Positions 6,656 to 12,966 of a stretch of 25,937 bases of DNA are shown piece after piece. The DNA is from a virus, in the IMG/VR virus record IMGVR_UViG_3300020465_000085, positions 1-25,937 of that record; one strand, written 5' to 3'. The translations under genes and the position numbers were made by a program. The number at the start of each line of letters is the position of its first letter. The first letter of the stretch is position 1. The notes under the pieces were generated by a model. It did not search any database. It saw nothing but the letters and a program-made list of their open reading frames with translations, and had not been told where the DNA came from.

Positions 6656-7093
6656 TTATTTGGCAGGAATTTTTGCTTCGACCATGCGATGGGTCATAGG
6701 CTTTACGTCTAACTTATTAGCTTTCTTGAGTCTGCTGTAATACTCAATTTCTTCGGCAGTAAAATCGTTGATCATAAACCTACACATCTTTCCTTGATTC
6801 CAATTTGGATCTGAATCAAGGGGATCAAACCAAAGTACAAATTCAAATGGTGACTCGGTTAATGCCTTGTATCCTGGCATAGATTGATGAAGCTTGTGGA
6901 TGCGTGTAGCTAATTCAACAATATTGTCGTAGATCTCTTGAGTTAACATCGAACGCAAGTGCATATCGAATGGCAATGCATCCTGCCAAATGATCCATGA
7001 GTCGTAGACAACGGATCGAATTGTTAAATATTTACTCCCATCAGGAGCTAGGAACTGATCAGAGTCAGCCCCTATAATCATAGTTTTTGCCAT
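6656..7093 (-). CDS. Hypothetical protein
   Basis: This encodes 145 residues with mixed alpha/beta composition and no signal peptide or membrane segment. The start at 7093 lies 29 bp inside the 3' end of the upstream methyltransferase-like gene. Visible features are a beta-rich N-terminus (SKYLTIRSVVYDSWIIWQD), a central helical part (LTQEIYDNIVELATRIHKLH) and a C-terminal EEIEYYSRLKK helix. I do not recognise the family. Neighbours suggest a role in DNA or nucleotide modification, but the sequence itself does not show it. Confidence 0.65.
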   Translation of the reverse strand: MAKTMIIGADSDQFLAPDGSKYLTIRSVVYDSWIIWQDALPFDMHLRSMLTQEIYDNIVELATRIHKLHQSMPGYKALTESPFEFVLWFDPLDSDPNWNQGKMCRFMINDFTAEEIEYYSRLKKANKLDVKPMTHRMVEAKIPAK

Positions 7094-7691
7094 AAGCTGC
7101 TCTGTAGGTTTCTTCCCAATCGCCTTCTCCGCTGTATTCGTTGAAGACGACTCTTCCTATGGCAGAAAAGACATTATGAAATCTCGAAAGCATCGTCTGA
7201 AAACGTGCTGGATCTGCTGGAGGAAGGTAAACAATTGCCGACCAATCCGAAGGAGAGATCCCACGGAAGGTCTCCAGTTCTTCGTCCCACCATTGGGGTC
7301 GAAGCCTTCGAAAAGGAATACATATGGGAAAGTCCCATAACCAAGGCGCACGAATAATCGCTTCGTTATGAGCCATCCAGATAACTGCATGACTAATACG
7401 CCCTTGCCTGTATTCCGTTAAAGTTTTATTAATAAGCCGCCTAGTTAGGGCAGCACCCGTGGGAGCTCCAACAAAGACTCTTCCTTCTCCTGGAACATCC
7501 CACTGCTTCCTAATAATTTGATCAAGTGTTTCATTGTCTCGATCAAAAAACCGCGAAGCTATCACCGATCGATTGATGTCTGTAGTTGAATAGGGATCTA
7601 AATCAATTGTGCCGAGGACGCTACGTGCTCCTTGTATGACATCAGCTGGTGGTGCTAGGTCACATCTATTAACTCTTCTTGGCTCTGGCAT
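7065..7691 (-). CDS. Degenerate phage N6-adenine methyltransferase-like protein
   Basis: This encodes 208 residues. The overall plan resembles the phage Dam-type N6-adenine methyltransferases: an early TIDLDPYS where the family has a Leu-Asp-Pro-Cys-Ala/Ser SAM-binding motif, then a Trp-D segment, then GRVFVGAPTG where a VFVNPPYS catalytic motif is expected. WMAHNE and DWSAIVYLPP strands follow. The catalytic Asn/Asp-Pro-Pro-Tyr is therefore replaced by Gly-Ala-Pro-Thr. If the homology is right, the enzyme probably cannot methylate adenine and may bind DNA or SAM only. An unrelated Rossmann-like protein is the alternative. It sits between two unknown genes in a minus-strand run with the ThyX-like gene. 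Confidence 0.55.
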   Translation of the reverse strand: MPEPRRVNRCDLAPPADVIQGARSVLGTIDLDPYSTTDINRSVIASRFFDRDNETLDQIIRKQWDVPGEGRVFVGAPTGAALTRRLINKTLTEYRQGRISHAVIWMAHNEAIIRAPWLWDFPICIPFRRLRPQWWDEELETFRGISPSDWSAIVYLPPADPARFQTMLSRFHNVFSAIGRVVFNEYSGEGDWEETYRAAYGKNYDYRG

Positions 7692-7694
7692 AAC

Positions 7695-8150
7695 TTAGAG
7701 CTCATCCATCATTGCCTGTATTCTTTTGGCCGGATGATCCCTAGGAATGATTGCCGCTGAGCCTCCTGAGTTATCTAGTAAAAGAATGCAAATCTCCTCG
7801 TCAAACTGACATTTTTTGACTTTGTTTAAAACATCTTTTAAAAATTCTTCGACAGTCGTGTCACCTGCTTTCTTTGCTTCTGCTAAATCTCTTTCAAGTT
7901 GAAAACGATTAATAAAATTTTGCTTTTGTATGGTTTCTTTTCCGTGATGGGTGGCGAGCTTCACGATTAAAGCTCCTTCCCCCAGGTAGCTAAATAAAGA
8001 GTCGAACGTTCTGATCAGGTCAGATATAATCGCTTCGCAGACTCTGACGTTTAATTCTTTTGATGCTTCCTTATTCTTAGTGGGTAAGGACTTGTCAATT
8101 AGTTCTGGAAAGAACTTGACTAAAAGTTCTGTAGGCTTCGGTCTTGCCAT
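7695..8150 (-). CDS. Hypothetical helical protein
   Basis: This encodes 151 residues, mostly helical, with a coiled-coil-like centre (RFQLERDLAEAKKAGDTTVEEFLKD). It ends in a short strand-rich segment (EEICILLLDNSGGSAAIIP) and a basic helix. It overlaps the gene upstream by 56 bp. The four-base spacing to the methyltransferase-like gene suggests one operon. No family is recognised. Confidence 0.65.
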   Translation of the reverse strand: MARPKPTELLVKFFPELIDKSLPTKNKEASKELNVRVCEAIISDLIRTFDSLFSYLGEGALIVKLATHHGKETIQKQNFINRFQLERDLAEAKKAGDTTVEEFLKDVLNKVKKCQFDEEICILLLDNSGGSAAIIPRDHPAKRIQAMMDEL

Positions 8151-8310
8151 GCAGTTTCATGTTCTGGGTTGTGACTAATAGATGGTCTGCGATGTATTCC
8201 GCTTGACTAAGCAGAGGTACGTATTGCCTGTATCTTGAATCTTTTAAAAAAGAATCAATCAACAAAGAGATCGAAGAATGTAATTCAAACAATTCATTAG
8301 AAATCTCCAT
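8095..8310 (-). CDS. Small hypothetical helical protein
   Basis: The open frame extends to 8436, but the first 42 codons lie over the end of the ThyX-like gene. I place the start at ATG 8310, giving 71 residues (MEISNELFELHSSISLLIDS...), with GAGA about seven bases upstream and ten bases after the preceding stop. The sequence is mainly helical and lacks known motifs. Its 3' 56 bp overlap the next gene in the run. Confidence 0.55.
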   Translation of the reverse strand: MEISNELFELHSSISLLIDSFLKDSRYRQYVPLLSQAEYIADHLLVTTQNMKLHGKTEAYRTFSQVLSRTN

Positions 8311-8320
8311 CGAAACGATC

Positions 8321-9106
8321 TCATGCTGCAACTGTTTTTGGTTCACTACTTCTTGATCTTTTCTTTTTAAACCCTGAATACCACCATCTATAAATCTCGG
8401 GAACCCATTTGCGAATTTCTTCGCCAATCTTGTCAACGATCGTCTTCATTTCGTAGCTGCTACGCATCAAGCTAGCACGCTCTAGTAGACGAAGCCAATC
8501 ACCGAGACTTGCAGTTACTGTAGCGTTAATAATTAAATTTTGTGGCAAAGATTCCTGAGCTACTTCCTTCGCAATCCCTCTCTCCCGTGCGGCATTGAAG
8601 TCAATTAATGATGAATAACCCGACGCTAATTGTTCATGACGATCTTCTTCTGTCCACTTAAATTCAGTACCGTCATCTGGGCTATAGAAGCCAACGGTTC
8701 TTGAATAAACATAGTCTTCTATTGATTGGTTGAAGTCTTTGACAGGCATACGATAGCTGTCAGCAGTTTCGTAAATAGACTGAGAATTAAAGCAAAGAGC
8801 CTGGCTTATTTCTTTTAACCCATGAATTGTTGTTTTATCACCTCTCAAGTGTAGGGATAGATGAGGATGATCGAATGGAATAAATGCTTCCTGAGTGATT
8901 TTCTGCTGCTTCTTAATAGCAGGTGCCCATTGCTCGATAAATTTCGCACCACTTTCGTCCTCAGCTAATGATTTATCGTTCTCAGCCATAACAGTACTTG
9001 ATGGCTTGAAGGTGCGATCAGTTAATGTTTTAAAGACTGAATATAAAAGCTTTTGAGGTTGCTCTTCTCCACCAATCCTATGGACACAGAATTGATTGAA
9101 AGCCAT
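8321..9106 (-). CDS. ThyX-like protein with erased signature motif
   Basis: This encodes 261 residues from ATG 9106 (a TTG three codons upstream also exists). ThyX enzymes make dTMP from dUMP with FAD and folate. The family framework is recognisable: PFDHPHLSLHL (about 77-87), then a helix with the signature region, GFYSPDDG, EVAQESLPQNL, and a C-terminal helix pair LGDWLRLLERASLMRSSYEMKTI. However, the signature Arg-His-Arg-x-x-Ser-x-Asn-Glu-x-Ser-x-Arg-Tyr reads Cys-Phe-Asn-x-x-Ser-x-Tyr-Glu-x-Ala-x-Ser-Tyr. The Arg of the usual Ala-Arg-x-x-Leu-Pro is Gln. FAD and dUMP contacts should be lost. The C-terminus is extended and basic (KKKRSRSSEPK). It may be non-catalytic or act on another substrate. 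The alignment was made by eye. Confidence 0.65.
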   Translation of the reverse strand: MAFNQFCVHRIGGEEQPQKLLYSVFKTLTDRTFKPSSTVMAENDKSLAEDESGAKFIEQWAPAIKKQQKITQEAFIPFDHPHLSLHLRGDKTTIHGLKEISQALCFNSQSIYETADSYRMPVKDFNQSIEDYVYSRTVGFYSPDDGTEFKWTEEDRHEQLASGYSSLIDFNAARERGIAKEVAQESLPQNLIINATVTASLGDWLRLLERASLMRSSYEMKTIVDKIGEEIRKWVPEIYRWWYSGFKKKRSRSSEPKTVAA

Positions 9107-9415: not shown

Positions 9416-10312
9416 TCAGACTTTAATGCTGTACTTCTTCTCCAGCTCATCAAGTCTCTGGGTCAAGGTCTTAACTGCATCTGAATCATTATCATCGTCA
9501 TCATCAGAATCACCGCCACGATATTTTTTAAACAGATCTGCTGGATCAATGTAATCAGGTGGCTTTCCTTCATACCTAGATTCGTGGTATCGGTCTGCTG
9601 CTCCTATTTCGTCGATACCAAGCATGACTTCTTTTTTCATTTGAGGTAAGAATCTCTGGTAGTAATCGTCTGTCATCCGATTACCAGCATCAGCGGCAGC
9701 ATCAATTGAATCCCAGTACTTGTTATATGGCCTATTTGGATCTGGCGTATATCTTGGATCTTTCTCTTTAGGTTCTTTGATTTTTACGCAACCGTCACCA
9801 GCTGCGTTGACCTTATATCCGTTAGCGCAATCAATATCAATTGGTAGGTCAGGGTCTACAACGCATCCATCTCCTGCTGAGTTTGTGACCATGCCAGGTC
9901 CGCAAACGATTGGATCTGGATCGTCAATTTCAATTGGATTACCTCCTCCTTGATATTCTTTATATTCATCACTACGTCGGATATTGGCTAAGACATCCTC
10001 TCTGGACTGCCCTCCCTCTCTCATATCATTCATCCAGTACTCCCTACCTTCGTCTCTAAGTTCTCGACCAAGCTCTGTTTTATAGGTATCACCAAGCCAT
10101 TTCTCGTCGCTACGGCGAATGTTTGATAGAACTTGATTTCGGTTTTGACCACCTTCATGAATATCTTTAGTCCAGTAGTCAAGTCCTTCTTGTCCGATTT
10201 CTCGACCCAGCTCTTTTTTATAAACGCCACGCAACCATTCTTGAGTACGTTGCCTTGCTTCCTCTTGTGGGTCAATATTTTGTCCCGGAATATAAGATAA
10301 TATCGCTGACAT
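9416..10312 (-). CDS. Two-repeat DUF4214 protein with Cys-Gly motifs
   Basis: This encodes 298 residues. Two tandem DUF4214 units at about 28-68 and 73-114 share the pattern YK-ELGRE, then EG-x-x-YW, DI/M-EGGQ-R, and IRRSDE. They are followed by two short Cys motifs of the form Cys-x-x-Gly-x(8-9)-Gly-Cys-Val (CGPGMV and CANGYK). After these come a Lys/Pro/Asp linker, an acidic stretch (DSDDDDDND) and a C-terminal coiled coil (TLTQRLDELEKKY). It is probably a virion or surface-associated structural protein, inferred from repeat type and domain order. It lies in the same orientation as its one-unit relative and the Asp-rich protein upstream (10338-11213), which has a similar Cys-Gly motif. Confidence 0.75.
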   Translation of the reverse strand: MSAILSYIPGQNIDPQEEARQRTQEWLRGVYKKELGREIGQEGLDYWTKDIHEGGQNRNQVLSNIRRSDEKWLGDTYKTELGRELRDEGREYWMNDMREGGQSREDVLANIRRSDEYKEYQGGGNPIEIDDPDPIVCGPGMVTNSAGDGCVVDPDLPIDIDCANGYKVNAAGDGCVKIKEPKEKDPRYTPDPNRPYNKYWDSIDAAADAGNRMTDDYYQRFLPQMKKEVMLGIDEIGAADRYHESRYEGKPPDYIDPADLFKKYRGGDSDDDDDNDSDAVKTLTQRLDELEKKYSIKV

Positions 10313-11239: not shown

Positions 11240-11923
11240 TTACTTATTATTATCAGTCATAAATTTAGGAACCATCATCGAGGACACAGGTTCAGAAGAG
11301 CCCATACGCCAATCGATCCAAATCTTATTTGTTTTCTCTAACCTTTCGAATGTTTTAGGGTCTTTATCAGCTGTTGTCTCAAGGAAACAAAGAGTTTCGC
11401 TTTCTAATTTTCTAGTACTAAATTCAATATCAATCGTGTCTAATGTTCTGCGATGATGAAAATGGGGGACTCCTTTTATCTTCATGTGAAGTGGATTGCA
11501 GCAGTTGTTGTCACCGCAAACCATTTTCATTGGTAGCCGTCCAATATCGCCCCAAGTAAACCACGCTGCCACTCGTGCTGCAGAGAATTGACGACCAGAA
11601 TTCCAATGACGAGGAATGGGAAAGTAACTTGAATTGCAGCGAGAGTGAAACTTGCCACGCCAGGGCCAGCAATCATCTGGTCCCTGCATCTCAACGAAAG
11701 ACCAAAATTCTAGAAATCTTCTTCTGTGAACCTTTTCTATTTTGTGTACATCAAGAGAAAGTCTTCCTTCTGTTAAAGCACTAACACACCTGACACAGGC
11801 ATGGCTGTCTGAATAACGAGGGATTTGACCATCCCTTGATCCGATGCTGTGCTCGTGAAAGAAGCAAATCGGTCCACTTTCAATTTTTGTGTGAAGATCT
11901 GGAGGGAGAGCCCATTGTGCCAT
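11240..11923 (-). CDS. HNH-like protein, active site uncertain
   Basis: This encodes 227 residues. An N-terminal Cys-rich part (CFFHEHSIGS..., SHACVRCV) could bind zinc. The centre has the HNH_3-type layout: DDCWPWRGK, then AARVAAWFTWGDIGRLPMK, then VCGDNNCCNPLHM. In the usual family a catalytic His precedes the first Cys (His-x-Cys); here that position is Met (MVC). The fold is probably kept and zinc bound, but cutting activity is in doubt, unless this belongs to the sub-type where the His is moved. Free-standing HNH-type genes are often mobile in phages. It lies between the acidic protein gene and a small barrel-like gene, all on the minus strand. Confidence 0.7.
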   Translation of the reverse strand: MAQWALPPDLHTKIESGPICFFHEHSIGSRDGQIPRYSDSHACVRCVSALTEGRLSLDVHKIEKVHRRRFLEFWSFVEMQGPDDCWPWRGKFHSRCNSSYFPIPRHWNSGRQFSAARVAAWFTWGDIGRLPMKMVCGDNNCCNPLHMKIKGVPHFHHRRTLDTIDIEFSTRKLESETLCFLETTADKDPKTFERLEKTNKIWIDWRMGSSEPVSSMMVPKFMTDNNK

Positions 11924-12168: not shown

Positions 12169-12228
12169 TACATTGCTTAACTTGCATATTGATAGATACA
12201 GTAAGCACTTTAATTGATTTAGCAAGTA

Positions 12229-12726
12229 TCAGTCGTTATCTTCTGCTGGTTCTAGAGGTCCACGGATAGGAATTCGATGTACTGCGATACCAGCTTCGAT
12301 GAACATTTCACGAGCAGTATCGAATGATTCCTGCCATCTCATTGGTTCTACGAAGTCCGGGACAACGATCTTATTAATATCAGCTTGAATTAAAACTGCG
12401 GCACAATTACTGCAAGTCATTAGCGGCCAGATGTACATCGTCGAGCCTGCTAAACAGACTCCAGACTTAGCAGCAAAAGCAACACAATTCATCTCTGCAT
12501 GGACGGTCATTGAAAGCCTGGTATCCCTGTCCTGTAAGCGAGCATCTGTATCTGTAATTCCAACAGGTAATCCATTGAAACCTTGAGCTAATATTCTTCG
12601 ATCTCTAACAGCAACTGCTCCTACTTTTGTACTGGGATCTTTACTCCAACCAGCAATATTAGAAGCGATAACAAGAAAACGCTGATCCCAATGTGCGGGA
12701 GCTTTAGGTGGTTTTAAGTTTTGCAT
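12229..12726 (-). CDS. dCMP deaminase
   Basis: This is a 165-residue zinc enzyme that converts dCMP to dUMP, the substrate for thymidylate synthesis. The zinc and catalytic residues are visible: HAE at 76-78 and CSNC at 105-108. The early WDQRFLVIASNIAGWSKDPSTKVGAV is typical of phage dCMP deaminases. The residue before the first Cys is Thr instead of the usual Pro. Its presence beside a ThyX-like protein that has lost its signature raises the question of what the dUMP is used for. The gene is divergent from the + gene at 12751, with 24 bp between them. Confidence 0.93.
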   Translation of the reverse strand: MQNLKPPKAPAHWDQRFLVIASNIAGWSKDPSTKVGAVAVRDRRILAQGFNGLPVGITDTDARLQDRDTRLSMTVHAEMNCVAFAAKSGVCLAGSTMYIWPLMTCSNCAAVLIQADINKIVVPDFVEPMRWQESFDTAREMFIEAGIAVHRIPIRGPLEPAEDND

Positions 12727-12750
12727 AGAATGTAAACGGGAGGTTAATTA

Positions 12751-12966
12751 ATGATTGAAGTAATTTCTGTTATCGGCGTCGCAACTGCTGGTGCTTTGTG
12801 GCGCATTGCTTTCACTCAAGGAAGCATGAAGAGAGGTATGGAGGCAATACTTAGAGAAGTTCAATTACTAAGAAGTGAAGTATCTAAAGACCTCATTATT
12901 GTAAAAGAGGAATTAAAAGATCACGAGGTACGTATTAGGAAATTAGAAACTGGTAAAAGAAGATGA
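12751..12966 (+). CDS. Membrane-anchored short coiled coil
   Basis: This encodes 71 residues. An N-terminal hydrophobic helix (IEVISVIGVATAGALWRIAF, about 2-21) is followed by a long charged coiled coil (MEAILREVQLLRSEVSKDL...). GGGAGG sits about 10 bases before the ATG. The architecture is the reverse of the 578-787 protein. Its TGA overlaps the ATG of the zinc-ribbon gene (ATGA), so the two are coupled. No function is known. Confidence 0.75.
   Translation: MIEVISVIGVATAGALWRIAFTQGSMKRGMEAILREVQLLRSEVSKDLIIVKEELKDHEVRIRKLETGKRR

Follow-up and report, generated by a model that had tools for sequence, protein, structure and literature searches.

A putative ThyX pseudoenzyme at a conserved locus of ocean viruses

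Introduction

The locus described here raises the question of what a viral protein does when it follows the thymidylate synthase ThyX along nearly its whole chain but has lost the residues on which ThyX depends. The gene lies at 8321-9106 (minus strand; start ATG 9104-9106, stop 8321-8323) of a stretch of 25,937 nucleotides referred to below as the window (IMG/VR record IMGVR_UViG_3300020465_000085), and encodes 261 amino acids. ThyX is an obligate tetramer. An earlier note on the sequence had described the product as a ThyX homologue with an erased FAD/dUMP signature, and had proposed several changed functions which are considered here together with other explanations.

Results

Homology and fold

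The protein scored above the gathering threshold of the Pfam Thy1 profile (PF02511; 38.2 bits vs. 24.8, E 1.7e-9, residues 110-237), and in tblastn comparisons with annotated phages it matched only cyanophage ThyX (best E 4e-12, 26% identity). An AlphaFold2 model made with the family alignment as input (pLDDT 80.9, pTM 0.79) had strong structural matches to ThyX and PolB only (Z 14.7-17.6 over 172-212 residues; next unrelated chain Z 3.5), with a Z of about 17 over about 200 residues for Thermotoga maritima ThyX. The alignment contained intact ThyX rows and the fold evidence is therefore partly dependent on the sequence evidence, with which it agreed. The homology proposed in the earlier note was thus borne out by profile search, by the cyanophage matches and by structure prediction, and is virtually certain.

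Loss of active-site residues in the window protein

Active-site positions are numbered as in T. maritima ThyX and, Ser88, Arg90, Tyr91 and Arg174 apart, are those which we take to form the active site of that enzyme. For these four, Arg174 activates dUMP, and the substitutions S88A, R90A and Y91A strongly slow the dUMP-triggered step (PMC8316439).

In an alignment bridging the window protein and cyanophage ThyX, in which the relative L011 reads LSFNTQSLYETVDSYR, CFNSQSIYET of the window protein aligned with SFDVQSQRYT of cyanophage ThyX (within ISFDVQSQRYT) and with SYNELSGRYS of T. maritima. The register first proposed, in which RHRxxSxNExSxRY was read as CFNxxSxYExAxSY and CFN was equated with RHR, was off by about 4 residues, since L011 and other relatives align CFN elsewhere; the counterpart of RHR is about E99-I100-S101. 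The former motif therefore corresponds to residues 99-113 (E-I-S-Q-A-L-C-F-N-S-Q-S-I-Y-E; 8768-8812, minus strand), where His79, Arg80, Arg90 and Tyr91 are replaced by I100, S101, Y112 and E113, and where the Ser88 equivalent, S110, is the sole remnant of the motif in this protein and its sub-clade. A weak second match at the N-terminus (E 5.6) was a colinear alignment with the N-terminus of cyanophage ThyX, and a shift of the motif to another part of the chain was rejected.

Outside the motif, His53 is replaced by A74 (H80 corresponds to His59), Arg147 by Q184 in QESLP (residues 184-188; 8543-8557, minus strand), and, within residues 200-217 (SLGDWLRLLERASLMRSS; 8456-8509, minus strand), Arg165 by G202 and Arg174 by A211, with R215 at the His178 position. 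The change from Ala-Arg to Ala-Gln before Leu-Pro had been read correctly, Arg165 and Arg174 being additional losses. The basic C-terminal tail, by contrast, is not new as had been supposed: intact cyanophage ThyX ends in EKRLHKARLAP and is likewise basic.

An eroded clade with the same losses

IMG/VR was scanned with the window protein and its alignments. Relatives that were 78-80%, 70%, 67%, 43-46% and about 28% identical to the window protein all had the same losses, and overall the eroded form was found in 22 contigs representing 20 distinct sequences, the lowest identity being 27%. No relatives were retrieved from GTDB genomes with narrow patterns (one for the eroded family and a cyanophage ThyX pair).

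Five of six key residues were retained in none of the 20 distinct eroded sequences, and in this respect the signature has indeed been erased. Equivalents of His79, Arg90 and Tyr91, which belong to the motif (cyanophage form RTHRxxxSFDxQSxRY), were absent throughout, and neither of the dUMP-binding residues Arg147 and Arg174 was kept in any eroded sequence, while both were present in all 12 intact copies compared. Of the columns invariant in intact copies, the eroded clade retained 14% over the 15 in the active site vs. 36% over all 66 (permutation p 0.004), so that the loss at the ligand site exceeds general divergence.

These counts bear on whether the protein could still be a thymidylate synthase acting through displaced residues, as might be suggested by its passing the Thy1 gathering score and by the Ser88 equivalent retained in the window's sub-clade. 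Such an activity is very unlikely: none of the 20 sequences had Arg147, Arg174, Arg90, Tyr91 or His79, nor was a conserved replacement present. Judged by its residues, the window protein is very probably not a thymidylate synthase, and it was classified as a ThyX-derived pseudoenzyme because the defining catalytic features of the synthase were tested for and were absent.

Intact, relocated and missing copies in the same lineage

The lineage was also sought independently of ThyX, using as queries two conserved neighbours, ORF151 (151 amino acids; 7695-8150, minus strand) and an HNH-like protein (11240-11923, minus strand). Among the 60 loci obtained, 21 contigs besides the window carried the eroded form, and 12 carried an intact ThyX, with every key residue, in the same colinear place. 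Four records (G031-G034) had no ThyX-like gene, and the slot of G031, which was read, was empty. One further record, G035, had a partly eroded and relocated copy on the opposite strand, in which His79, Arg80, Tyr91, Arg147 and Arg174 were lost and Ser88, Arg90 and Arg165 kept; it is apparently an independent, intermediate instance of ThyX loss. This copy is located at 12172-12813 of its record (minus strand; L189 4119-4838), downstream of the dATP/dGTP diphosphohydrolase gene. Thy1 scores at these loci separated the three forms cleanly (intact 101-129 bits, G035 59 bits, eroded 28-42 bits); eroded copies in records nearer the window scored 26-39 bits, and the overall ranges were 101-145 bits for intact copies and 25-42 bits for the eroded clade.

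A branch supported at 100/99 set all 20 distinct eroded sequences apart in the ThyX tree, where the intact copies of the same locus stood next to them. Fast-evolving sequences may attract each other in such a tree, and a second tree was therefore built from the HNH-like neighbour. The eroded phages grouped again, with weaker support (87/79; 90% of bootstrap trees), the phages without the gene formed a separate group (99/99), and G035 was placed elsewhere, beside a phage with an intact ThyX. Long-branch attraction is thus disfavoured as the cause of the eroded clade, the neighbour gene being immune to it. Since both trees agree, the most likely history is a single main loss, after which the clade diversified widely, with a separate second erosion in G035. 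Catalytic residues were lost clade-wide, and active ancestry is supported by the 12 contigs with an intact ThyX at the same locus: the slot between the DUF4214 gene and ORF151 would ancestrally have held an active ThyX, from which one clade would have lost the FAD, dUMP and catalytic residues.

Selection on the eroded gene and its pocket

Among the window's close relatives the eroded gene had a dN/dS of 0.07-0.14, similar to the adjoining enzymes, and clade-wide it was 0.065-0.19 vs. 0.036-0.12 for intact copies; some pairs were near dS saturation, which makes single values rough, and none approached 1. Selection for some function very probably maintains the eroded gene. A decaying pseudogene or an artefact of assembly or sequencing, as might be suspected from the absence of the gene in related phages and from the partly eroded, relocated copy in G035, is scarcely credible with dN/dS far under 1 in every scored pair, a frame open in all 22 contigs from many metagenomes, and a colinear placement.

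The residues P17, Q18, H80, R136, G139, Y141, W204, L205, E219 and P236, considered structural, were fixed in the eroded clade, and where 19 or more of the 20 sequences agreed, the residue was nearly always one that intact ThyX also has. In the pocket, column conservation across the 20 sequences revealed no newly fixed polar signature; positions differed among sub-clades (Arg174 to A, V, S, H, N or C; Arg90 to Y, H, F, E, K, Q, S or G), and were nearly constant inside the window's own sub-clade. A drifting pocket, together with conserved columns shared with intact ThyX, favours a role of the fold or surface. The free variation of pocket positions, with no new residue fixed, speaks against persisting dUMP binding and against a single new enzyme.

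Loss of catalysis with a retained framework and purifying selection across a diverse clade agrees with the changed function suggested in the earlier note. Two of the specific functions named there fared less well: silent binding of dUMP or folate is at odds with the variation of the former dUMP/FAD contacts among sub-clades, and action on another pyrimidine with the lack, clade-wide, of a new residue marking a new active site. More generally, the old pocket might bind or transform a different small molecule, the protein being a repurposed enzyme or a ligand sensor. Strong purifying selection and the near constancy of the pocket within the window's sub-clade are in keeping with this, and PolB, whose structural Z tied with that of ThyX at the top, demonstrates that the fold can change substrate. 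This explanation is nevertheless rather unlikely: no new polar pocket residue is fixed and the catalytic columns vary, so that any new chemistry would need to vary from one sub-clade to another.

Neighbouring genes

The slot is part of a colinear block, ordered as dCMP deaminase, HNH-like protein, DUF4214 proteins, ThyX slot, small ORF, ORF151, methyltransferase-like protein, ORF145 and dATP/dGTP diphosphohydrolase. The DUF4214 protein upstream of the slot (9416-10312, minus strand; Pfam E 1.5e-16) had the same order in relatives. The small ORF (8095-8436 as called, minus strand) overlaps the 3' end of the pseudoenzyme gene; it was present in the window's close relatives and was weakly constrained (dN/dS 0.23-0.71).

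Two members of the same nucleotide module belong to the block. The dCMP deaminase (12229-12726, minus strand; Pfam E 2.5e-18) had been pointed out in the earlier note, and it is indeed encoded in the window, but its presence is not specific to erosion: it occurs in eroded relatives, in those without ThyX and in most of those with an intact copy. The dATP/dGTP diphosphohydrolase (PF18909; 5570-5995 as called, minus strand, the true start being downstream; Pfam E 4.4e-31) was found in 8 of 8 relatives tested, with or without active ThyX. A halogenase/oxidoreductase-like gene absent from the window was inserted after the diphosphohydrolase in G003 (L004 9748-10884) and G006/G007, and G003 also had 2OG-oxygenase-like genes at this insertion (both named by eye).

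The product of 7065-7691 (minus strand) is similar to DNA adenine methyltransferases of the Dam type, a Vibrio phage protein that contains NHPF being matched by tblastn at E 3e-3, and has GAPTG in place of the catalytic motif D/NPPY. Its relatives at more than 50 loci throughout the lineage have GAPTG or APPVG, GPPAG or AVPNG at this site; near the window they were 65-87% identical, with dN/dS of 0.03-0.07. The model was weak (pLDDT 62) and resembled SAM methyltransferases with Z up to 6.8. Going by its motif, this protein is possibly a second pseudoenzyme.

Replacement synthases, genome size and host

The earlier note had asked whether an intact thyX or thyA lies elsewhere in the genome. Neither the window nor the larger related records, among them G011, which has 85,211 bases and carries the eroded gene alone, were found to contain a second thyX or a thyA. 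Four records of the lineage with an intact ThyX measure 84.98-85.26 kb, and the matching sizes suggest that about 85 kb is the full genome size. A phage ribonucleotide reductase and a dUTPase were not found in the related records either, and compensation by any of these four was rejected.

The window encodes an Hli-type (high-light-inducible, chlorophyll-binding) protein (PF00504; 17959-18156, plus strand), the product of a photosynthesis gene of host origin such as cyanophages typically carry. This gene, the presence of cyanophage-type proteins and a terminase in the relative G004 with 52.7% identity to the Synechococcus phage S-EIV1 terminase suggest a cyanobacterial host; these ocean viruses probably infect cyanobacteria. 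The cyanobacterial control genome, Synechococcus elongatus, scored for ThyX and not for ThyA. G004 (1-56206) begins and ends at gene boundaries and has an integrase-like gene (named by eye) at its right end, as though it had been cut as a provirus out of a larger contig; part of the lineage may be temperate.

Discussion

The reading to which we incline, with some reserve, is that the product of 8321-9106, well supported as a ThyX pseudoenzyme, persists because of a structural or regulatory function, most likely through contact with host ThyX or with nucleotide enzymes of the phage. It would make no dTMP and its present function would be non-catalytic, and contact with a protein partner, as opposed to chemistry, is a reasonably probable mode of action. 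Regulation of a synthase, one of the functions raised in the earlier note, is a possible part of this reading. ThyX forms a tetramer with active sites where three subunits meet (Leduc 2004, as reported in PMC8316439), and a dead subunit could therefore join or touch the host ThyX and stabilise, retune or cap the host enzyme. Host ThyX is a plausible but tentative choice of partner. More speculative still is the full scenario, in which an inactive subunit, derived by the phage lineage from its own ThyX, would assemble with the cyanobacterial enzyme and retune dTMP synthesis during infection. Alternatively, the protein may be a scaffold for the phage module of dCMP deaminase and dNTP hydrolase, a role which the active ancestor could already have had.

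The same subunit geometry might serve a dominant-negative inhibitor that poisons host ThyX, so that the host is deprived of dTMP or the phage is protected against a host defence: with active sites at a junction of three subunits, as Leduc 2004 is summarised in PMC8316439, one dead subunit could disable several. This is improbable, however, as the phages retain a dCMP deaminase, which feeds dTMP synthesis, and no other thymidylate synthase was found in the phage records examined.

Three observations weigh against the pseudoenzyme reading that we prefer. With only 23-31% identity to intact ThyX, the formation of mixed tetramers with the host enzyme is less certain; G031-G034 lack the gene, so that in some backgrounds at least the phages can do without it; and keeping a dCMP deaminase would be strange for a phage whose protein simply inhibited dTMP synthesis.

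All tested members of the eroded clade exceed the Pfam cut-off, and automatic annotation would label their genes as thymidylate synthases and count them as auxiliary metabolic genes making dTMP, almost certainly wrongly. At a single syntenic position the gene may be intact, partly eroded and relocated, eroded yet under selection, or missing, and this unusual natural series makes the retention of a disarmed metabolic enzyme by a virus directly testable. Should the protein act on host ThyX, a viral pseudoenzyme would be acting on the family from which it originated. No earlier description of an inactive ThyX in phages was found in the literature searched, from which most subscription journals were left out.

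Comparison with known systems

The window protein shares with ThyX (PF02511; T. maritima TM0449, PDB 1O26; cyanophages ACG-2014f and S-SRM01) the fold along nearly the whole chain, and with the cyanophage enzymes also the N-terminal PQxL and the C-terminal helix pair, but equivalents of His53, Arg78-80, Arg90, Tyr91, Arg147 and Arg174 are missing. The intact ThyX of relatives occupies an identical genomic slot, and identity is only about 23-31%.

In its proposed way of working, the protein is comparable to the dead paralogue of trypanosomatid deoxyhypusine synthase, which joins active subunits in a heterotetramer and activates its enzyme (PMC3663545), though enzyme family and organism differ and the interaction is proven there and only proposed for the eroded ThyX. 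The atypical ThyX of Corynebacterium glutamicum (PDB 3FNN, 3GE9), likened here by fold and entry titles, is dispensable for thymidylate synthesis according to those titles, but its source bacterium also scores for ThyA. PolB of Streptomyces cacaoi (PDB 4P5A/4P5B) is reported to methylate UMP/dUMP, an activity not expected of the window protein; it is, however, likewise derived from ThyX with an altered role, and it gave the top structural match (Z 17.6).
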